From positions 1-64,000 of the forward strand of contig NZ_JHVL01000009.1 in the NCBI RefSeq assembly GCF_000620125.1: a DNA stretch of 64,000 bases. The letters are read 5' to 3'. The stretch is from Clostridiisalibacter paucivorans DSM 22131 (GTDB lineage Bacteria; Bacillota; Clostridia; Tissierellales; Clostridiisalibacteraceae). Below are positions 3,695 through 15,376 of the stretch, piece after piece (position 1 is the stretch's first letter; each line of letters opens with the position of its first letter). The notes under the pieces were generated by a model that worked only from the letters and a program-made list of their open reading frames with translations, was not told where the DNA came from and ran no database searches. Both the position numbers and the translations under genes were made by a program.

Positions 3695-4147
3695 GTGGAG
3701 TTAAATACTAAATATTTTGGAAAAATAGAAATAGAAGAAGAGAGAATTATTACTTTTCCTGATGGAGTACCAGGTTTTGAAGATTCTAAGGAGTTTGTAA
3801 TAATAGAAAATCCAGAGGATGATATACCTTTCAATTGGCTCCAGTCAATAGATAATCCCAATCTAGCATTCGTAATAATAAATCCTTTCATATTTAAATC
3901 TGATTATGATTTTGAAATTCCCGATTTGGTAGTAAAAAGATTGAAAATAGTAGAACAAAAAGATATATCAGTATATACCATAGTAGTAGTTCCAGAAGAT
4001 ATAAATAAAATGACAGCAAATTTATCTGGCCCTGTGATAATAAATGTGAATAAAAGATTAGGCAAACAGATAATACTAGACGATAACAGGTATCATACAA
4101 AGCATTTAATATTGGAAGAATTAAAAAGTAAAGGGCAGGTGAAATAG
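3695..4147 (+). CDS. fliW: flagellar assembly factor FliW
   Basis: FliW binds either flagellin or CsrA. When flagellin is secreted, freed FliW sequesters CsrA and relieves repression of hag translation (known from B. subtilis). The conserved opening is [M/V][20 protein letters not shown], followed by [16 protein letters not shown] choose the GTG at 3695, preceded by GAAGGTG, because it aligns with the family start and gives 150 residues. An ATG at 3668 would add nine residues with no homologous look. csrA follows two bases after the stop, so the pair is translationally close. Confidence 0.93.
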
Positions 4148-4149
4148 CC

Positions 4150-4377
4150 ATGCTTGTACTTACTAGAAAAAAGGATGAGAGCATAATAATAGGAGAAAAT
4201 ATAGAAATAGTAATTACTGAAATAGAAGAGGGAAAAGTAAAATTAGGCATAAATGCACCTAGAGATATAAATATATATAGAAAGGAAATATATGAAGATA
4301 TAAGAACAGAAAATAAAGAAGCAGCCAATAATAGAGATCTAGACATGGATGTTATAAGGAGAATTTTTAACAGGTAA
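4150..4377 (+). CDS. csrA: carbon storage regulator CsrA
   Basis: CsrA is a small dimeric RNA-binding protein that blocks translation at GGA-containing hairpins. The 75-residue protein has the canonical [20 protein letters not shown] start with Arg6, the [16 protein letters not shown] segment holding the second RNA-contacting region, and a variable basic tail. Only two bases separate it from fliW, matching the FliW-CsrA partnership. A likely target is the hag leader 4.2 kb downstream, with a GGA-loop hairpin at 8581-8594 and a GGA-bearing ribosome binding site. Confidence 0.97.
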
Positions 4378-4382
4378 ATGCA

Positions 4383-4790
4383 GTTAGTAGTTCGTAGCTA
4401 GTAGTTAGTAGTTGATGGAATAAGCAGAGAACCCAAATCTTTATTATGATTTGGAGTGAATCGCTTAGTGGTAAAGTAAAGAGTCTAAAGAAAGTAAAAA
4501 GGAAGTTAGTAGATATTAGTTAGTAGTTAGTAGTTTATGGAATAAGCAGAGAACCCAAATCTTTATTATGATTTGGAGTGAATCGCTTAGTGGTAAAGTA
4601 AAGAGTCTAAGGAAAGTAAAAAAGAAAGTTAGTAGTTAGTAGGTAGTAGGTAGTAGTTGATGGTGGAAATCCACAGGATTTCATCATTAGACTACTAACC
4701 ACTAACCAATAACTACTAACTATTTTATATTTTCATAAAATCTAATTGATTTTACTACGAACTACAGACTACGGACTACTAACTATACTT
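4383..4790. repeat. compound repeat island after csrA, with 122-bp tandem duplication
   Basis: This spacer of more than 400 bases holds no gene that I can support. It contains several TTAGTAGT arms, a segment at 4415-4500 (starting ATGGAATAAGCAGAGAACCC) repeated at 4537-4622 with one difference in 86 bases (period 122), a GAAATCC-ACA-GGATTTC hairpin near 4666-4682, and a right side of ACTACTAAC and CTACGGACTAC words to about 4790. The long copies have no reading frame or terminal inverted repeats typical of an IS. Confidence 0.75.
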
Positions 4791-4855
4791 GTTTTACTTT
4801 CTAAATATTGGGTATATTTACTATATTGATGAATGAATCAATATGGGGTGATACT

Positions 4856-6412
4856 ATGTCAAGAAATGAAGAAAGTATATTATTTGCACCAGAAGATGAA
4901 GTCCACAGTCTTCCTAAAGACACATGGAAGATAATGATAGTAGACGATGACGAAGGGGTACATGAAATAACTAAAATGGTATTTAAAGACTTTATTTTTA
5001 ACAATAAGGGTTTGGAAATTATCAGTGCATATTCGGGTGAAGAGGCAAGGGAACTTATATCAAGATATCCTGATATAGCAGTTATCCTTTTAGATGTGGT
5101 GATGGAGGAGGATGACTCAGGTCTTAAAGTGGTGGAATATATCAGAAATGTATTAGAAAACAAATATGTGAGGGTTATACTTAGAACTGGCTATCCAGGA
5201 CAAGCCCCTGAAAAAGATGTAATATTAAAATATGATATAAATGATTACAAAGAGAAGACGGAATTGACAGCTACAAAGCTGTTTACAACTTTGATATCTG
5301 CCCTTAGGGGATATAAAGATATAATGGTTATAGAAGAAAATAGAAAGGCATTAAAGAAGATGATAGAGGCATCTCCTAAGATATTTGAATTACAGTCTAT
5401 GGGAGATTTCATATCTGCGGTTCTTTCTCAAATGATATCATTGATGGATTTAGGCAAGAATGCAATATATTGTAATACTAGGGGATTTGCCGCCACAAAA
5501 TATCAAAATTCTAATGATTTTTATGTCATGGCTGCTACAGGGGATTTTGGAGATAAAATAAATAAAAATATATTTGAGTTTTTAGATGAAGAAATTCTTT
5601 ATAGAATAAAGGAAGCTATAAACACAAAAAAGAATATATCCGAGGGAGAGAACTATATAGTATATTTTGAAAACAAAAACCAAATAGAAAACATTATTTA
5701 TGCTGAATGTAGTCAAAATCTAAAGGAATTTGACCATGAACTTATGCTTTTGTTTTGTAACAATATATCCATAGCATTTGACAATATATATCTAAATAAA
5801 GAGATAGAGGACACTCAAAAAGAGATAATATACACTTTGGGAGAGGTTACAGAGGCTCGGTCAGAAGGCATGGGTAACCATGTGAAGAGGGTATCTAAAT
5901 ATTGTGAATTATTAGCAAAAAAGTATGGATTGTCCGAAGAAGAAGTACAGATAATAAAAATGGCAGCCCCTATCCATGATATAGGAAAGGTGGCTATACC
6001 TGATAATATATTACATAAACCTGGGAAACTGACATCGGAAGAATTTGAAATTATGAAGACCCATTCAGCATTGGGATATAATATGCTTAAAAACTCCAAT
6101 AGAAGGGTGTTAAAGGCAGCTTCCATAATAGCCCACCAACATCATGAAAAATATGATGGGACAGGTTATCCACAAGGATTAAAGGGAGAAGATATCCATA
6201 TATATGGTAGGATATCTTGTATAGCAGATGTATTTGATGCATTGGGCAGTAAAAGAGTATATAAAGACCCTTGGCCATTGGAAAAGATATTAGACTATTT
6301 TAAAGAAGAAAGCGGTCATCTTTTTGACCCTAAATTGATAAAGATTTTCTTTGAAAATATAGAGGAGATTATCAGTATAAGAGATAAATTTACTGATGAG
6401 GAAAGAAAATGA
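4856..6412 (+). CDS. response regulator with DUF3369 and HD-GYP domains (c-di-GMP phosphodiesterase type)
   Basis: Residue numbers count from an upstream ATG at 4808. A receiver domain has the acidic cluster DDD (46-48), phospho-acceptor Asp96 and a Lys in DYKEK. Then comes a middle region of the DUF3369 kind (about 180-330) and a C-terminal HD-GYP domain with HDIGK (390-394) and HHEKYDGTGYP (445-455). HD-GYP enzymes normally hydrolyse c-di-GMP, and all key residues visible here are present. I prefer the start at 4856 (MSRNEESI, 518 aa) after GGGGTGA. The stop overlaps the next gene by four bases (ATGA), so regulator and kinase are coupled. Placement beside csrA and hag suggests control of motility (inference). 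Confidence 0.88.
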   Translation: MSRNEESILFAPEDEVHSLPKDTWKIMIVDDDEGVHEITKMVFKDFIFNNKGLEIISAYSGEEARELISRYPDIAVILLDVVMEEDDSGLKVVEYIRNVLENKYVRVILRTGYPGQAPEKDVILKYDINDYKEKTELTATKLFTTLISALRGYKDIMVIEENRKALKKMIEASPKIFELQSMGDFISAVLSQMISLMDLGKNAIYCNTRGFAATKYQNSNDFYVMAATGDFGDKINKNIFEFLDEEILYRIKEAINTKKNISEGENYIVYFENKNQIENIIYAECSQNLKEFDHELMLLFCNNISIAFDNIYLNKEIEDTQKEIIYTLGEVTEARSEGMGNHVKRVSKYCELLAKKYGLSEEEVQIIKMAAPIHDIGKVAIPDNILHKPGKLTSEEFEIMKTHSALGYNMLKNSNRRVLKAASIIAHQHHEKYDGTGYPQGLKGEDIHIYGRISCIADVFDALGSKRVYKDPWPLEKILDYFKEESGHLFDPKLIKIFFENIEEIISIRDKFTDEERK

Positions 6413-8427
6413 ATAGAAGGTCAAAGATAATATTGTGGCTAATTATATGTTTAAATCTCATAATTTCTCCAAAAGTATGGTCAACATCTATATCTGTTGC
6501 TGATGCAATTAAAAAGTTTGATTATAATAATGGTTATGAAAATAAAAAGATAAGGATATTGGCAATCAATTCTTATCATGAGGGATTGCAGTGGACAGAT
6601 GATATAATGGATGGAATAAAATCGGTATTAGATGGAGATGAAGAATTCCATATAGAGTATTTGGACACTAAAAGGATAAACGATGAAAAATATTATGAAA
6701 AAATATATGAACTTTTCAAATATAAATTCCAGAATTCAAATTTTGATGTGATAATAGTGTCAGATTATGATGCATTGAATTTCATGATGAGATATGGTGA
6801 CGATCTATTTGGAAATATACCTGTGGTGTTTTGTGGAGTAAATGGTACCAGGGATATACTAGATGAATTAAGGCCCAATATGACAGGGGTAGTGGAAAAC
6901 TTAGACATAATGGAAACATTGGATTTGGCATTTGATTTACACCCAAAAACAAAAAAGGTATTGGTAGTATCAGATGAAAATTCCGCAGGAAGGTTAAATA
7001 AAGAAGAAGTAAAATTAGTAGAAGAAAAATACGACTATATAGGTTTTGAAGTAACGGAGGATATGTGCATAGATAGTATTTTAGATACAGCTTCTAAAAT
7101 GAGTAAAGATGATATTATATTTATGCTTTCCTTTACTAAGGATAAAAAGGGAAATGTATATGGATTTCAAGAGGTATCCAATCTATTAGATGAGGTATCT
7201 GATACCCCTATATACGGTACATGGGATTTTTCATTAGGACATGGTATAGTAGGGGGTAAGTTGGCCAGTGGATTTTATCAGGGGAAAAATGCAGGAATAT
7301 TAGCAAGGAGGATAGTTAGTGGAGAGAGACCAGAAGATATTCCTGCAATAAATGCAAGCCCAAATAAATATATGTTTGATTATGAAGAATTAAATGAATT
7401 CAATATAGATATAGAAAAATTGCCGAAAAATTCAATAATCATTAATAGACCATATTCTTTTTATGAAGAGAATAAGATAATCATAAATATTACCATAGCA
7501 TTTATAGTTTCATTGATACTTATAATACTGTTATTACTTACTAATATAAGAGATAGGAGAATAGCACAGAGGGAAGTAGATAGTGTAAATAAGCATTTAG
7601 AAGAGTTGGTATTAGAGAGAACAAAAGAATTAGAAGATACAAATAAAGAATTAAAAACCACCCTTGAAACCTTGAAAATGACCCAAAATCAATTAATAGA
7701 ATCAGAGAAAATGGCGGCCCTGGGAAATCTAGTAGGGGGAGTAGCCCATGAAATAAATACACCTGTGGGTATAGGAGTAACTGCAATTACCCATTTAGAT
7801 ATTAGAACTAAAGAAATGCTTAAATTATTAGAGACAGGAAAGTTAAAGAAATCAGATTTAGACAAATACCTACAGGACAATAAAGGTTCCGCCAAATTAG
7901 TGTTAAATAATTTGAATAGGGCAGCAAGACTAATAAATAGTTTTAAGCAAGTAGCAGTAGACCAAAGTAATAAAGAGTATAGGAAAGTCAATATAAAAAA
8001 GTACACTAAAGATATAATACTGAGTTTAAGACCAGAGCTAAAGAAAACAAATATAAAAGTAGAATTAAATGCTCCTAAGGATTTAGAGGTAAAAATGAAC
8101 CCAGGAAATTATTCTCAAGTTATAACTAATCTAGTGATAAACAGCATAAGACATGGATATAAAAAGGGAGAATATGGTAAAATAGCCATAGATATAGAGG
8201 AGAAGGAAGATAAGATAATAATAACCCATACTGACTATGGTAAAGGTATAAGCAAAGACATAATAAAGAAAATATTTGATCCATTTTTCACCACAGCCAG
8301 AAATCAAGGAGGCACAGGGTTAGGACTAAATATAATCTATAACATAGTAGTGCAAAAGATGAAAGGAACAATAAGGTGTGAAAGTGAATTAGGAGAATAT
8401 ACAAAGTTTATAGTGGAACTTCGGTAG
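6409..8427 (+). CDS. membrane sensor histidine kinase with ABC-substrate-binding-like sensor
   Basis: The 672-residue protein has a signal sequence (residues 1-25), a periplasmic-binding-protein-like extracellular region (about 48-340, ILAINSYHEGLQWTDDIMDG, then VVFCGVNGTRDIL), one transmembrane helix (about 352-377), a coiled coil (385-430), a HisKA-like dimerisation helix with His447 in GGVAHEINTPVG, and an ATPase domain with NSIRHG, DYGKGI and GGTGLGLN motifs. It presumably phosphorylates the HD-GYP regulator encoded immediately upstream (4-base overlap). The ligand is unknown; the sensor type is the one found in ABC_sub_bind-like solute-binding proteins. Confidence 0.87.
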   Translation: MNRRSKIILWLIICLNLIISPKVWSTSISVADAIKKFDYNNGYENKKIRILAINSYHEGLQWTDDIMDGIKSVLDGDEEFHIEYLDTKRINDEKYYEKIYELFKYKFQNSNFDVIIVSDYDALNFMMRYGDDLFGNIPVVFCGVNGTRDILDELRPNMTGVVENLDIMETLDLAFDLHPKTKKVLVVSDENSAGRLNKEEVKLVEEKYDYIGFEVTEDMCIDSILDTASKMSKDDIIFMLSFTKDKKGNVYGFQEVSNLLDEVSDTPIYGTWDFSLGHGIVGGKLASGFYQGKNAGILARRIVSGERPEDIPAINASPNKYMFDYEELNEFNIDIEKLPKNSIIINRPYSFYEENKIIINITIAFIVSLILIILLLLTNIRDRRIAQREVDSVNKHLEELVLERTKELEDTNKELKTTLETLKMTQNQLIESEKMAALGNLVGGVAHEINTPVGIGVTAITHLDIRTKEMLKLLETGKLKKSDLDKYLQDNKGSAKLVLNNLNRAARLINSFKQVAVDQSNKEYRKVNIKKYTKDIILSLRPELKKTNIKVELNAPKDLEVKMNPGNYSQVITNLVINSIRHGYKKGEYGKIAIDIEEKEDKIIITHTDYGKGISKDIIKKIFDPFFTTARNQGGTGLGLNIIYNIVVQKMKGTIRCESELGEYTKFIVELR

Positions 8428-8623: not shown

Positions 8624-9469
8624 ATGAGAATTAATAACAACTTAATGGCAATGAATACCCATAGACAATTGAATATTACTAACAATTCAAGTGCTAAGTC
8701 TATGGAAAAACTATCTTCAGGATATAGAATTAATAGGGCTGGAGACGATGCAGCAGGTCTTTCAATATCTGAAAAAATGAGAGCACAAATTAGAGGTTTA
8801 AATCAAGCTTCAAGAAATGCTGAAGATGGTATTTCTTTAGTACAAACAGCTGAGGGTGCATTAACAGAGACTCATGCAATGTTACAAAGAATGAGAGAAT
8901 TAGTTGTACAAGGAGCTAATGGTACTAATACTAGTGAAGACAGAGCTAGAATAAAAGATGAACTTAACCAATTGTCAACAGAGATTACTGAAATCACAAC
9001 AAAAACTGAATTTAACTCTAAGAAACTTTTAAATGGTAGCTTAGTTGCGTCTGACGCAGTATTTCTTCAAGTTGGTGCAAACTCTATGCAATCTATCAAA
9101 TTTGGAATTGGTACTATGAATGCAGCTGCTCTAGGAGTTGAAGCATCTGCTATAGGTGATGTTGTTGGGGCATCTGCTACAACAGCAGCAAGTATTAGTG
9201 CATTAACTACAACAATAGATACAGCATTAGAAACAGTTTCACAAGAAAGGTCTAAACTAGGAGCTATTCAAAACAGATTAGAGCATACTATTAAAAATGT
9301 AGATAATACATCAGAAAACTTACAAGCAGCTGAGTCAAGAATTAGAGATGTAGATATGGCTAAAGAAATGATGGAATTTACAAAACAAAATATTCTTCAG
9401 CAAGCAGCTCAAGCTATGTTAGCACAAGCTAATCAAGCACCTCAAGGAGTACTTCAATTATTAAGATAG
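8624..9469 (+). CDS. hag: flagellin
   Basis: This is the major filament subunit. The 281 residues comprise the conserved N-terminal D0/D1 region (MRINNNLMAMNTHRQLNIT, then LSSGYRINRAGDDAAGLSIS) and the C-terminal helix (ESRIRDVDMAKEMMEFTKQ to VLQLLR), with only a short variable middle (about residues 140-200) rich in Ala, Ser and Thr that could carry O-glycans. The ATG follows a strong AAGGAGGA. It has its own sigma-D promoter and CsrA-type leader, and a hairpin terminator at 9474-9525. Maf-type glycosylation genes follow. Codon use looks optimised for high expression compared with its neighbours. Confidence 0.98.
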   Translation: MRINNNLMAMNTHRQLNITNNSSAKSMEKLSSGYRINRAGDDAAGLSISEKMRAQIRGLNQASRNAEDGISLVQTAEGALTETHAMLQRMRELVVQGANGTNTSEDRARIKDELNQLSTEITEITTKTEFNSKKLLNGSLVASDAVFLQVGANSMQSIKFGIGTMNAAALGVEASAIGDVVGASATTAASISALTTTIDTALETVSQERSKLGAIQNRLEHTIKNVDNTSENLQAAESRIRDVDMAKEMMEFTKQNILQQAAQAMLAQANQAPQGVLQLLR

Positions 9470-9564: not shown

Positions 9565-11424
9565 ATGAATAAAATGAAAGATATATTATTACAAAGAATT
9601 GCAAGTATTGATATAAAATATAGAAATCGAATTTACATAAATCTAGGGTCTATGGATAATGAAAAGTTCAATCTAGAAATAAAAGACACAAAAGATTATA
9701 AGAAAACTATATCACTAAAAGTAGAAGATAAAGAAGTTTTTCTTTTTAGCAGGTATAGTATTGATAAAGAGATAGAACGATTTTGTAATGAAATAAGAGA
9801 AATTAATACAAAATGTATAATAATAGTATTTGGATTTGGACTAGGTTATCATATAGCTAATCTTTTTGAAAAAATATCTAATGAAAATAAAGTTCTTATT
9901 ATTGAGCCTAGTGTTAAAATATTTGCCAAAGCTTTTGAAATGATAAAATTTGAAGAAATATTTAAAGGACATACTAATTTCAATATTATTGTTGGCAAAA
10001 ATATTGAAAAAATTAATGAGTATTTTTATAAAAAAATTAATAGTGATAATTTGAATAATATTTATTTTTGTGAATTTGGACAATATGGAAATGTATTTAA
10101 TTCTTATATGAATGAAATATATAAAAATTTAAAGGATACTATTATTGATAATGAGGTGAATTTAGCTACAGAATATCGTTTTCAGTATGAATTTTCTAGT
10201 AATGTTATTAAAAACATTCCATATTTATTGGAATGTGAATCTGTATCTAAGCTAGAAAATAAATTCAAAGGATATCCTGCAATTGTTGTTTCAGCAGGAC
10301 CGTCTTTAGATAAAAATATATATAAGCTTAAAGAAGCTCAAGGAAAAGCAATTATCATATCAGGGGGAAGAACTCTAAAGCCATTGCTCAAAAATGGCAT
10401 AAAACCTAATTTTGTTGTTTCTATTGACCCAGGATATCCTGCCTATAAATTAGTAGAAAATTACTTGCATTGTGAAATACCTTTAGTTTCTATGGTATTA
10501 AGTAGCCATGATATAATTAAAAAATATAAGGGTAAGCATTTTATAATTAATAAATATCCTTATTCTAAATTAATAAATAAATTATTACAAAGTGAGATAC
10601 CAACATTACCTAATGGAGGATCTGTAGCTCATACATCTACAGTTTTAGCTAATTATATGGGGTGTAATCCTATTATTTTGGTAGGACAGGATTTAGCTTT
10701 TACTAATGAAAAAATGCATTCAGAGCAAGCAACTGCTGAAGTTGGAAAGAATGAAAGAAAAGAAACAGAAATCTTTGTAGAGGATATATATGGGAATAAA
10801 GTGAACACAGGTAAATCACTATTTAGCTTTTTAAAATGGTTTGAAAATTATTTTGCTATTAATAAACATATTAAGTTTATAGATGCGACAGAAGGTGGAG
10901 CTAAGATAGAAGGAACAGAGATACATACATTAGATGAAACTATAAAGTTACATTGTACAAAAGATTTATATAATTATAAAGATTTGATAATAGAATCACC
11001 AATTTCAGTTAAGTCTTATAAAGAAGCTATTAAATTTATGGAAGAAATATTAGAAAAAATAAATCATATGGAAGATTGTGTTGGTATAGGATTAAAGCTA
11101 TTAGAAAAAGTATATATCTATTATAAAAGAGAAAATAATTTGAATGTAATCAAAGCATTTGAAAAACTTGATTATATTGATAATGAAATTATAGAAATGA
11201 GAGACAGTAGTGTTTTATTAACTAGTATTGTAATACCAGTTATAAGAAGAATAAATTTAAATAAAGGATTCCATGAAAAAATAGAGGAAACAGAGATTGA
11301 AAAGGGGTTAAGGATAGTTGAAAAGAATACTTTACTTTATGAAGGGATACTCGATTCTATAGAAGTTATGAGACCTTTAATTGAAGAGGCTATCGATTTT
11401 ATGAGAAAAAAGGCAGACAAATAA
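9565..11424 (+). CDS. Maf-type motility accessory factor (flagellin glycosyltransferase family, DUF115)
   Basis: The 619-residue protein has the two-part Maf plan: an N-terminal domain with VFGFGLGYHIANLFE near residue 87 and a central MptE-like/DUF115 domain with YPAIVVSAGPSLDKN (about 237-251) and SIDPGYPAYKL (about 286). Maf proteins transfer nonulosonic acids (pseudaminic or legionaminic type) to flagellin Ser/Thr in several bacteria. Its place directly after hag supports that role. The ATG follows TAGGAGAA. The sugar used cannot be read here, because no nonulosonate synthesis genes lie in the window. Confidence 0.9.
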   Translation: MNKMKDILLQRIASIDIKYRNRIYINLGSMDNEKFNLEIKDTKDYKKTISLKVEDKEVFLFSRYSIDKEIERFCNEIREINTKCIIIVFGFGLGYHIANLFEKISNENKVLIIEPSVKIFAKAFEMIKFEEIFKGHTNFNIIVGKNIEKINEYFYKKINSDNLNNIYFCEFGQYGNVFNSYMNEIYKNLKDTIIDNEVNLATEYRFQYEFSSNVIKNIPYLLECESVSKLENKFKGYPAIVVSAGPSLDKNIYKLKEAQGKAIIISGGRTLKPLLKNGIKPNFVVSIDPGYPAYKLVENYLHCEIPLVSMVLSSHDIIKKYKGKHFIINKYPYSKLINKLLQSEIPTLPNGGSVAHTSTVLANYMGCNPIILVGQDLAFTNEKMHSEQATAEVGKNERKETEIFVEDIYGNKVNTGKSLFSFLKWFENYFAINKHIKFIDATEGGAKIEGTEIHTLDETIKLHCTKDLYNYKDLIIESPISVKSYKEAIKFMEEILEKINHMEDCVGIGLKLLEKVYIYYKRENNLNVIKAFEKLDYIDNEIIEMRDSSVLLTSIVIPVIRRINLNKGFHEKIEETEIEKGLRIVEKNTLLYEGILDSIEVMRPLIEEAIDFMRKKADK

Positions 11425-11637: not shown

Positions 11638-11696
11638 TAGATCTAGTTAATATACTATGGATTTTAAGTAAATCCATAGTATATTAACTAGATCTA
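11638..11696. repeat. 27-bp perfect inverted repeat in maf spacer
   Basis: The spacer 11425-11765 is AT-rich and has no gene. It carries arms at 11638-11664 and 11670-11696 that are perfect complements around a 5-base loop (TAAGT). The arms begin TAGATCTAGTTAATATACTA. No U-tract follows, so it is not a standard terminator. It ends about 70 bases before the start of the next gene. Confidence 0.8.
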
Positions 11697-11765: not shown

Positions 11766-12392
11766 ATGGAAATTTATATACTTAATAGAGTTTTAAAATA
11801 TGAAAATGATAAAAAAATTATTGATGACATGTTTAGTAAAATAAACGAAATTATTTCAAAATCTTCATATACTTTTAGTCATTTTGAAGTGAATGGACAT
11901 AAGGTATATGAAGATTTTAATAATTATTTTTTTGATAACATAAAAAAAATAGAAGAAGTTAAAGTTATTGTAAAAACTTTTAAACAATTTGCACAGGATA
12001 TATTTAAAACTACTTATGATTATTTGGATAATGCAATAAGAGAATTGGATATATTATCAAATGAATTTTATAAGTATCCTGGAAAAGAGTCATGGAGAAA
12101 ATTAGCATATGCACTTGATGGCATTAGCTGGATTATGGATACCTATATGTTGATAGATAAAAGTACTGAACTTAAAACTGTAGTTGAAAGTTATGAAACT
12201 TGGAATTTATATAAAGAAGATATAAATTCATTAATAGAACTTTTAAGAGAGTTTGAATATATTATTGAAAGTAAAGATTTTGTTTCTATTGCAGATATTT
12301 TATCTTATGAAATAATACCTATATTTGAACATATGAAAGACAAAATATGTATTATATCAGTTGAGGAGGTATTATCAAGTGATATTAACTGA
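11766..12392 (+). CDS. hypothetical helical protein in the maf island
   Basis: I do not recognise this 208-residue protein (MEIYILNRVLKYENDKKI...). It looks soluble and almost wholly helical, rich in Lys, Glu, Ile and aromatic residues, with no signal peptide or membrane segment. The start is the ATG at 11766 after TTGGAGGT; an upstream in-frame TTG at 11751 lies within that site and is unlikely. Its end overlaps the next gene by 14 bases, so the two are probably co-translated. Its position between two Maf-family genes suggests a part in flagellin modification or export, but that is inference. Confidence 0.75.
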   Translation: MEIYILNRVLKYENDKKIIDDMFSKINEIISKSSYTFSHFEVNGHKVYEDFNNYFFDNIKKIEEVKVIVKTFKQFAQDIFKTTYDYLDNAIRELDILSNEFYKYPGKESWRKLAYALDGISWIMDTYMLIDKSTELKTVVESYETWNLYKEDINSLIELLREFEYIIESKDFVSIADILSYEIIPIFEHMKDKICIISVEEVLSSDIN

Positions 12393-13704
12393 AAATATTA
12401 GTATAATTAAAAGTAAAAACTTCAAAATTTTGGAAAACATAAAACATATTGAAAATAAAGATTACTTAAATAATATAAAAATTGAAAAAACTAGGAACGG
12501 GCTAAAGACTTTGTATGTTAATAAAGATGATAAAAAAATATACATACATAGCAAATATAATCCTATGAGAGAGGCAGAATCTATAATAAATGAATATAAG
12601 GATGTAGAAAAAATAACTGCCGTGGTTTTTTATGGAATAGGTTTAGGATATCATATTAATGTTTTTTTAGAAAAATATCCGAATGTAAATTATTATATAT
12701 ATGAACCAATACAGGAAATGCTTTATACATATTTATCAAATAAGTTTTTGAAAGAGCTTCCTTCAAATAATTTGATAGATATAGTTACTGGTAAGAACGA
12801 AGAAACTATAAAAAGTTTTCTAAAGAACTTAATAGATGAGAATATGAATAATATTATTATAGTAGAGCTACCAATGCATAAACAATTGTTTCCTGAAGAA
12901 CATAAGAAATTTTTGGAACTTTTCAAAAGTGCAATAAAAACTAAAAAGAATAATATCCGTACTGATTATAATTTTAAAAAAAGAGTTAAGGAAATAAATA
13001 AGCCTAAATCAGATATTATAGAGTTTAATCCAAGCAATATTTTTTTGGATCCTAATATATATATATCATATGATATGAAGAGTTTACTAACTAATCAATA
13101 TAATAAGAAAAATGAATTTAACCGTATGGATATTATAGTGAGATATTTAGCTATAGAAGAATACTATGGGAAAAATAAGTATGGATTCAAGTTTTATGAG
13201 AAAATGCAAAAAGCTAGAGGTCAAAAGATTCACAATATAGAGAGATTCATAAAAACTATAAAAAGTATAGAAGAAAATGGATTTGATGACGATAGTCCTG
13301 TTTTAGTTGATTTAAACCTACAATTAATAGATGGCTCTCATAGATTGGCTTGTGCTTTATATTTTAATTTTAATAAAATTCCTATTAAGATTCAGCCGCA
13401 AATGACAAATATTGAATATTCAATTGAATGGTTTAAAAAAGCTGGATTTACAGACATTGAATTAGAAAAAATTAAAGACAAGCAACAAGAAATATTAGAG
13501 GAGAAAGGAATGTTTTTTGTAACTATATTATGGCCACCAGTACAAAATTACTTTAATGAAATAACAGAAGAGTTAAAGCAAGAGTATGAATTATTGTCTG
13601 TTAAAGATTATACTTTTAGAAATGACTATGATTTTAATGCTACTGTAAGAGGGTTATATGCTATTGATGATATAGAGGTAAATGCAAATAGTACCAATAT
13701 TTGA
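12379..13704 (+). CDS. Maf N-terminal domain fused to a ParB/sulfiredoxin-like domain
   Basis: The first about 200 of 441 residues match the N-terminal domain of the Maf protein encoded at 9565-11424, collinearly (GIGLGYHINVFLEKYPN near residue 87, then IYEPIQEML). The DUF115 catalytic part is absent. Instead, residues about 240-345 read as a ParB-like fold: RYLAIEEYYGKN, IKSIEENGFDDDSPVLVD, and LIDGSHRLACALYFN with the DGSHR motif at about 318-322. A C-terminal piece (ILWPPVQNYFNEI) is unfamiliar. The start is GTG 12379 after GAGGAGGT. It may bind a sugar or nucleotide rather than DNA. The end may be affected by the nearby decayed element. Confidence 0.75.
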   Translation: MILTENISIIKSKNFKILENIKHIENKDYLNNIKIEKTRNGLKTLYVNKDDKKIYIHSKYNPMREAESIINEYKDVEKITAVVFYGIGLGYHINVFLEKYPNVNYYIYEPIQEMLYTYLSNKFLKELPSNNLIDIVTGKNEETIKSFLKNLIDENMNNIIIVELPMHKQLFPEEHKKFLELFKSAIKTKKNNIRTDYNFKKRVKEINKPKSDIIEFNPSNIFLDPNIYISYDMKSLLTNQYNKKNEFNRMDIIVRYLAIEEYYGKNKYGFKFYEKMQKARGQKIHNIERFIKTIKSIEENGFDDDSPVLVDLNLQLIDGSHRLACALYFNFNKIPIKIQPQMTNIEYSIEWFKKAGFTDIELEKIKDKQQEILEEKGMFFVTILWPPVQNYFNEITEELKQEYELLSVKDYTFRNDYDFNATVRGLYAIDDIEVNANSTNI

Positions 13705-13756
13705 AGATTGGAAAGAGGAAATAGATAGAGTTTTGTTGCCTTATATAGTTTCATAG
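13682..13756 (+). pseudogene. truncated start of a lost maf-island gene
   Basis: After GAGGT, an ATG at 13682 opens MQIVPIFEDWKEEIDRVLLP and four further residues, ending at TAG two bases before the repeat at 13759. It overlaps the end of the preceding gene in another frame, as translationally coupled genes often do. The simplest reading is that the next gene was cut off by insertion of the element that begins at 13759. Alternatively it is the true C-terminus of the preceding protein after a frameshift. Confidence 0.4.
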
Positions 13757-13758
13757 AT

Positions 13759-13947
13759 ATGGGGTCAGGCTCACTTTTAAACTTTACAATGATAGGAGAT
13801 AAGAAAGACAAAAGAATCTAAAAACAAAGTTTGGTGAGATGGAAATACAAGTTCTTAGAGATAGAAATGGAGCATTTGAGTCCATAGCTGTCTCTAAGAT
13901 GGATTTGAAGATATTTTAGGTATCTAGATATGGGAAAGTGAGTCTTC
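13759..13947 (+). mobile_element. decayed insertion element with IS256-type remnant
   Basis: The left end is a 40-base segment beginning ATGGGGTCAGGCTCACTTTT, found again at 14819-14858. The right end, GAAAGTGAGTCT near 13934-13945, resembles its inverse complement (AAAAGTGAGCCTGACCCC). Between them is a transposase fragment at 13830-13919. Only about 190 bases remain, so it is dead. Confidence 0.5.
13830..13919 (+). pseudogene. IS256-family transposase fragment
   Basis: Reading from 13830 gives FGEMEIQVLRDRNGAFESIA and nine more residues to a stop at 13917-13919. The pattern (G-E-x-E-I-x-V-x-R-D-R-N-G-x-F-E) is the conserved N-terminal stretch of IS256/mutator transposases. Upstream, ESKNK in another frame suggests a frameshift. 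About 30 of roughly 400 codons remain and there is no DDE region. Confidence 0.65.
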
Positions 13948-13952
13948 AATGT

Positions 13953-14926: not shown

Positions 14927-15376
14927 ATGGATAAAGAAATACTATCATTACTTAAAGACATAGACAGAAAAGTTGATGGAAATAGTAAGAAACTAGATAA
15001 ATATGGCATAAAACTAAATGAATATGGCGAAAAGTTGGATGAACAAGGCAAGAAGCTATATGAATATGGCAAGAGGCTAGATGAACATGGTATAAAACTA
15101 GATGAACAAGGCAAAAAGTTGGATGAGCATGGCAGGAAACTAGATGAACAAGGTAAAAAGTTGGATGAGCATGGCAGAAAACTAGATGAACATGGCAGAA
15201 TTTTGAGGGCATTGGAAGAGGCTAGTCATGTTCATAAAGCAGAGATGGATAATATTAGTTTGGCGGTAAATAGGATAGAAGGTGAAGTCAAGACAATTAG
15301 AGAAGATCTCACAGCAGTGGAATTGATGACATCTAAAAATTGGAATGATATAGTTAAACTGAAGGCTATAAAATAA
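14927..15376 (+). CDS. heptad-repeat coiled-coil protein
   Basis: The 149-residue protein has no named function. Residues about 20-92 are heptads of the type KLDEHGR / KLDEQGK / KLNEYGE, encoded by 21-base repeats (for example near 15120-15190) so alike that recent expansion or contraction is likely. After them a non-repetitive helical tail follows (ALEEASHVHKAEMDNISLAV to KNWNDIVKLKAIK). There is no signal peptide or membrane helix. The heptads predict a long parallel coiled coil, perhaps trimeric. The start follows AAGGGGTGA. The last codons lie inside a 48-base palindrome. Confidence 0.75.
   Translation: MDKEILSLLKDIDRKVDGNSKKLDKYGIKLNEYGEKLDEQGKKLYEYGKRLDEHGIKLDEQGKKLDEHGRKLDEQGKKLDEHGRKLDEHGRILRALEEASHVHKAEMDNISLAVNRIEGEVKTIREDLTAVELMTSKNWNDIVKLKAIK

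Follow-up and report, generated by a model that had tools for sequence, protein, structure and literature searches.

A Maf–ParB chimeric gene in the flagellin-glycosylation locus of Clostridiisalibacter paucivorans, probably a product of rearrangement

Maf flagellin glycosyltransferases, such as those of M. magneticum and C. botulinum, comprise an N-terminal degenerate Rossmann domain of unclear role (PF20157), a central catalytic domain (PF01973) and a helical C-terminal domain (PMC11339370). ParB folds are described in section 6 and the term-matched passages of a 2025 survey (PMC12704722) as fused to many domains and as binding CTP, ATP or GTP. The same passages cover ParB/sulfiredoxin (Srx)-fold proteins outside ParABS systems (SerK, SbnI, Srx and orphan ParBs), which carry a phosphate motif of the GxHR/GERR type; they contain no fusion to a Maf or to a nucleoside diphosphate kinase (NDK) domain. 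We describe a gene in which the N-terminal domain of a Maf is joined to a ParB-like region and to the beginning of an NDK-like domain. Such a fusion was not found in the literature searched here.

The window analysed comprises 64,000 nucleotides of Clostridiisalibacter paucivorans DSM 22131 (contig NZ_JHVL01000009.1, positions 1 to 64,000). The chimeric gene occupies positions 12379–13704 on the forward strand and is a genuine open reading frame of 441 codons without an internal stop. It starts with GTG, preceded at a distance of 9 nt by the Shine-Dalgarno sequence GAGGAGG (12363–12369, +). Start codon, ribosome binding site and uninterrupted frame bear out the reading frame and coordinates proposed in an initial annotation made from the sequence. 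Searches of the protein against NCBIfam and with PADLOC gave no match.

The flagellin gene (8624–9469) lies directly upstream of a full-length Maf of 619 residues, Maf1 (9565–11424, +; PF01973, E = 1.1e-50; PF20157, E = 6.3e-7). The chimera is preceded by a gene for an α-helical protein of 208 residues (11766–12392, +), the 3' end of which overlaps the 5' end of the chimera. This helical protein, for which neither Pfam nor NCBIfam has a match, may be a partner of Maf2 or a chaperone for flagellin. The stretch from Maf1 to the helical gene contains a perfect inverted repeat of 27 bp around a 5-nt loop (11638–11696), which may be a terminator or a small mobile hairpin. Further downstream, a 149-residue open reading frame (14927–15376) consists of repeats like KLDEHGRKLDEQGKK and encodes a coiled-coil-like protein; similar proteins are found near Maf genes in two relatives (L060 and L068). 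A legionaminate-type gene set (NeuA, NeuC, NeuB, acetyltransferase, aminotransferase, dehydratase-like) is located in a polysaccharide locus of the same genome (L070, C7:67000–86900), on another contig than the flagellin locus. As the genome retains NeuB and this set, Maf1 may still receive its donor sugar.

Residues 1 to ~210 of the chimera (12379–13008, +), including the motif GIGLGYH, form a Maf N-terminal domain. PF20157 is the sole Pfam match of the protein (E = 8.4e-8, 32.4 bits against a gathering cut-off of 23.5). The catalytic MptE-like/DUF115 domain PF01973, detected by Pfam in Maf1 and in the Maf2 of one relative (G207), was not found in the chimera, and the helical C-terminal domain of Mafs is missing as well. 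A search with the N-terminal part across 150 relatives gave a better or comparable match in 39 genomes. The best of these matches were full-length Mafs of ~620 residues with 60% and 58% identity, and their alignments end at residue 202. Altogether 29 full-length Mafs from relatives align through residue ~202 with identities of up to 60%, and a Maf alignment extends the similarity to residue ~210, just ahead of the MptE-like domain. The identity to Maf1, the only other Maf N-domain in the genome, amounts to only ~29%. As judged from these alignments, the first ~210 residues constitute the N-terminal domain of another Maf, here called Maf2, and Maf1 is not the parent of the chimera. The initial annotation had correctly recognized a Maf N-domain without a DUF115 part; it had aligned this domain to the neighbouring Maf, which is a different paralog.

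In relatives of the same order Maf2 is present as a full glycosyltransferase of ~620 residues at the same operon position. Orthologs of the helical gene (40–56% identical) adjoin a full-length Maf2 directly upstream in all seven relatives read (L060, L064–L069); the ends of the two genes overlap in several of them, as in the window. Since the chimera is preceded by the same ~210-residue helical gene, it occupies the place of Maf2. The genome contains no further Maf2. In most of the seven relatives Maf2 is adjoined by sugar-biosynthesis genes (dehydratase, NeuB, CMP transferase and others). Maf-N proteins of ~450 residues in relatives were considered as further fusions and rejected, because they are short Mafs that retain DUF115. 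These short Mafs (433–463 residues; L059–L065) contain the N-domain and DUF115, have lost most of the C-terminal helical domain and share flagellin-glycosylation loci with full Mafs.

The remainder of the chimera has a different origin. Residues ~213–433 belong to a sparsely distributed family that has no Pfam or NCBIfam model. The closest homolog, referred to as L018, comes from a Clostridiaceae metagenome-assembled genome (DUMC01000093.1) and is 64.5% identical over window positions 13027–13677, from the start of the L018 reading frame up to the sequence DDIE. Full-length L018 consists of a ParB/sulfiredoxin-fold domain, an NDK-fold domain and a nucleotidyltransferase, the latter matching DUF2204 (E = 9e-5). 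In the window, the identity to L018 together with ParB profile and fold matches assigns positions 13027–13509 (+) to the ParB/sulfiredoxin-like domain. This domain contains the segment VRYLAIEEYYGKN and the P-loop-like motif DGSHR (13330–13344, +), and D-G-x-H-R is invariant in the family. The segment VRYLAIEEYYGKN had been taken for a ParB signature; it is conserved solely within this family.

A single-sequence AF2 model of the window protein was unusable (mean pLDDT 35.8), and an alignment headed by L018 was therefore used to obtain the fold. With seven sequences, AF2 yielded a usable model of L018 residues 11–306 (pLDDT mostly 72–96), with the nucleotidyltransferase part outside the model. 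A Foldseek search of this model against the PDB gave nucleoside diphosphate kinases as top hits (probability 1.00, E ~1e-4, TM(target) ~0.64), and a search against viral models gave ParB/Srx proteins (E = 0.0045–0.1, TM(target) up to 0.66). Because the Foldseek output carries no query coordinates, the NDK-like domain was placed at L018 residues ~163–306 by secondary structure and profile alignment. The ParB/Srx topology is that predicted on the model of the homolog, with secondary structure and hhalign alignments in register. The best viral matches of the model come from giant viruses and include three proteins named glycosyltransferases, which hints at a similar predicted domain pair there.

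Comparison by hhalign with ParB of relatives gave P = 5e-4 and placed DGSHR on GERR of the phosphate-binding Box II motif (G-x-x-R). The comparison with NDK gave P = 3.4e-3 and matched R-x-x-Y and H-x-x-D to the NDK active-site motif (IRGDY...H..D). Swapped control pairings were weaker (0.62 and 0.069). As the probabilities reported by hhalign itself are low (31% for ParB, 10% for NDK), the folds and motifs carry the argument and not the sequence score. The PHROG ParB profile phrog_620 matched the window protein with E = 0.0045 and L018 with E = 2e-4, whereas Pfam ParB_N (PF02195) gave no match in the window protein even at E ≤ 1. The ParB-like region with DGSHR that had been suspected at the outset is confirmed by the profile, by hhalign and by the model of the homolog. 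A function in plasmid or chromosome partition (ParABS) was rejected: the protein has no HTH or dimerisation domains, and no parA-like open reading frame lies nearby.

The chimera shares its predicted fold with the ParB/sulfiredoxin-fold proteins outside ParABS, and DGSHR is the counterpart of their phosphate motif. It differs from them in lying below detection by PF02195, in an extra helical segment (YYGKN) and in its flanking parts, the Maf N-domain on the N-terminal side and half of an NDK-like domain on the C-terminal side. With nucleoside diphosphate kinases (PF00334) the second domain of the homologs shares the fold, and the active-site motif R..Y / H..D is present in the full-length relatives of the chimera. 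However, there is no Pfam NDK match, the lysine of KPD is replaced by tryptophan (WPP), and the half containing the histidine is missing in the window.

A single-sequence search across the class (391 genomes) gave a few true relatives of the C-terminal part, all of them outside the order of the window organism. The family was found in 7 of these 391 genomes at E ≤ 1e-5, counting C. paucivorans itself, where it occurs once; scanning 84,980 species genomes led to seven loci. Two hits turned out to be spurious, L004 (a sigma-54 activator), which was the first order-wide match, and L009 from the class search. Searches of plasmids, phages and viral contigs revealed no relative, and sequence searches of the PDB with protein and profile produced chance matches only. 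Family members L018, L006, L007, L019–L021 and L130 show the same order of a ParB domain followed by an NDK-like domain. In contrast to the chimera they have a complete NDK-like domain (ParB-only members such as L005 and L016 excepted), usually a nucleotidyltransferase, and no Maf N-domain; their N-terminal domains are Rossmann-like, short or absent. L018 lies in an island in which flagellin and a full Maf are followed directly by the ParB/NDK/nucleotidyltransferase protein, then by NeuB (PF03102, E = 3.3e-71) and by a CMP-transferase that carries a fused KDN-9-phosphatase-like HAD domain. L019, in which the nucleotidyltransferase is encoded separately, adjoins NeuB- and CMP-transferase-like genes. 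Other members are found in polysaccharide loci with glycosyltransferase, flippase or ABC exporter genes.

The homology of the chimera to this family extends across the ParB domain and about half of the NDK-like domain and then stops. Positions 13510–13677 (+) correspond to L018 residues ~163–219 and to the N-terminal ~40% of the NDK-like domain, with FVTILWPPVQ at the position of the first NDK strand; the tail with WPP, originally left unassigned, is this part of the domain according to Foldseek and hhalign. Homology to L018 and to the other members ends at DDIE (window position 13677, L018 residue 219 of 473), and only eight codons lacking any homolog (VNANSTNI) and a stop codon follow (13678–13704, +). 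This truncation relative to the homologs had escaped the initial annotation. The chimera retains ~57 residues of the NDK-like domain, while the NDK-type histidine motif and the nucleotidyltransferase are gone. Shortly downstream (13753–13952, no strand assigned) lies mobile-element debris, pieces of which are repeated at ~20 sites in the genome. It includes an in-frame fragment of a Mutator-family transposase (13806–13916; positions 65–93 of profile PF00872, E = 5.5e-4, 19.4 bits with a cut-off of 21).

The chimera was also examined for signs of decay. In the N-terminal part, 2 of 21 positions that are invariant in 28 other Mafs are changed (0–3 in the other rows), and in the ParB part 3 of 44 positions that are invariant in four family members (1–11 in the others). 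The Maf part evolves mildly faster than in two relatives, and the neighbouring helical gene does likewise compared with one. Since the acceleration is common to the adjoining gene, the chimera is not singled out as decaying, and its classification as a pseudogene by the rate test is unsupported. At the level of sequence, the three tests neither set the chimera apart as unconstrained nor prove a function; a recent loss would be invisible to them.

Based on these results we consider the gene to be probably a chimera, created when the Maf2 locus was rearranged and shortened at the 3' end by a mobile element; a rearrangement product is more likely than a new working enzyme. The join between the Maf N-domain and the C-terminal part is present in the assembly, in frame; the two parents, the succession of domains, the end of the homology and the remnant of a transposase are directly observed. 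In the order of events that we infer, the ancestor would have had Maf2 with a ParB–NDK–nucleotidyltransferase gene somewhere downstream, as suggested by the order flagellin, Maf, ParB in L018. A deletion or recombination would then have fused the first ~210 codons of Maf2 in frame to the 5' part of the ParB–NDK(–nucleotidyltransferase) gene, which would have belonged to a nonulosonate/CMP-sugar island. Later, a mobile element would have removed the 3' end. Glycosyl transfer would be lost with the DUF115 domain and NDK-type phosphotransfer with the histidine motif. If the product is made, it would be at most a two-domain protein, which could bind a nucleotide through its predicted ParB-like fold; if not, the gene would be a decaying remnant. 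A search of 249 genomes of the order, and of even samples of the class and phylum, revealed no second example of the fusion. Of the earlier interpretation, the Maf-N and ParB/Srx domains and the missing DUF115 stand, while a working flagellin-modification protein with a nucleotide switch or sugar kinase is not supported, given the missing Maf catalytic domain, the truncation ahead of the histidine motif, the debris and the lack of a second fusion.

Several observations speak against a rearrangement product: the reading frame is intact, the Shine-Dalgarno sequence is good, the junction falls on a domain boundary, most invariant positions are preserved in both halves, and no rate signal is specific to the chimera. 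The intact frame, the preserved positions and the missing decay signal would also fit a working accessory protein, an explanation that we regard as possible but doubtful. Here the Maf N-domain would dock to flagellin or Maf1, and the ParB-like domain would bind an NTP (CTP or ATP) and either regulate glycosylation or phosphorylate a sugar or serine, by analogy with SerK and SbnI, which act on free serine. The conserved DGSHR and family residues, the retained operon position and the range of fusions and nucleotides known for ParB folds (in the survey passages cited; PMC12704722) are in line with this, as is the Rossmann-like N-terminal domain that family members other than L018 have where the chimera has its Maf N-domain. 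The protein ends, however, within the NDK-like domain and next to transposase debris, the fusion has no second example, and a role of the Maf N-domain in flagellin binding is not known (PMC11339370).

Alternatively, the family might descend from a whole Maf fused to ParB–NDK–nucleotidyltransferase, with the window gene as an internally deleted form. The Maf frame (3985–5901) and the ParB frame (5905–7323) at the L018 locus are in phase and separated by a single TAA, the L018 codons upstream of the earliest in-frame ATG, at codon 14, retain similarity to the window protein, and no Shine-Dalgarno sequence is seen at this ATG. L018 being a metagenome assembly, the TAA may be natural or an error, and its region 3985–7323 may hold two genes or a fusion that has been broken, or may be misassembled. 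The L018 Maf, however, resembles Maf1 (30%) and not Maf2 (E = 6 to the N-terminal part of the chimera), and the associations of Maf and ParB in L018 and in the window therefore go back to different events. No Maf adjoins the other family members, and we judge this ancestry very unlikely. An assembly artefact joining two unrelated contigs appears more improbable still: the draft genome comprises 85 contigs and the region has repeats, but the in-frame join lies at a domain boundary in unique sequence, and the repeats are downstream of the gene and not at the junction.

It also seems unlikely that Maf-type domains and the ParB/NDK/nucleotidyltransferase protein constitute a functional unit in flagellin glycosylation, with the window gene as its working, minimised version. 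In such a unit the Maf transferase would be physically tied to a step driven by an NTP, either the phosphorylation of a sugar or the handling of CMP-sugars. The chimera itself probably reflects how genes turn over in an island for flagellin glycosylation. Of greater interest is the uncharacterised ParB–NDK–nucleotidyltransferase family beside Maf and nonulosonate genes. Its members occur in glycan loci, and in two of the cases read (L018 and L019) genes for NeuB, a CMP-sugar transferase and a phosphatase lie next to them; judged from sequence, context and predicted folds, the family may have a role there. Should the family prove enzymatic, the modification of surface sugars or flagellin would gain a step that depends on a nucleotide, and the ParB fold a further role that does not involve DNA.
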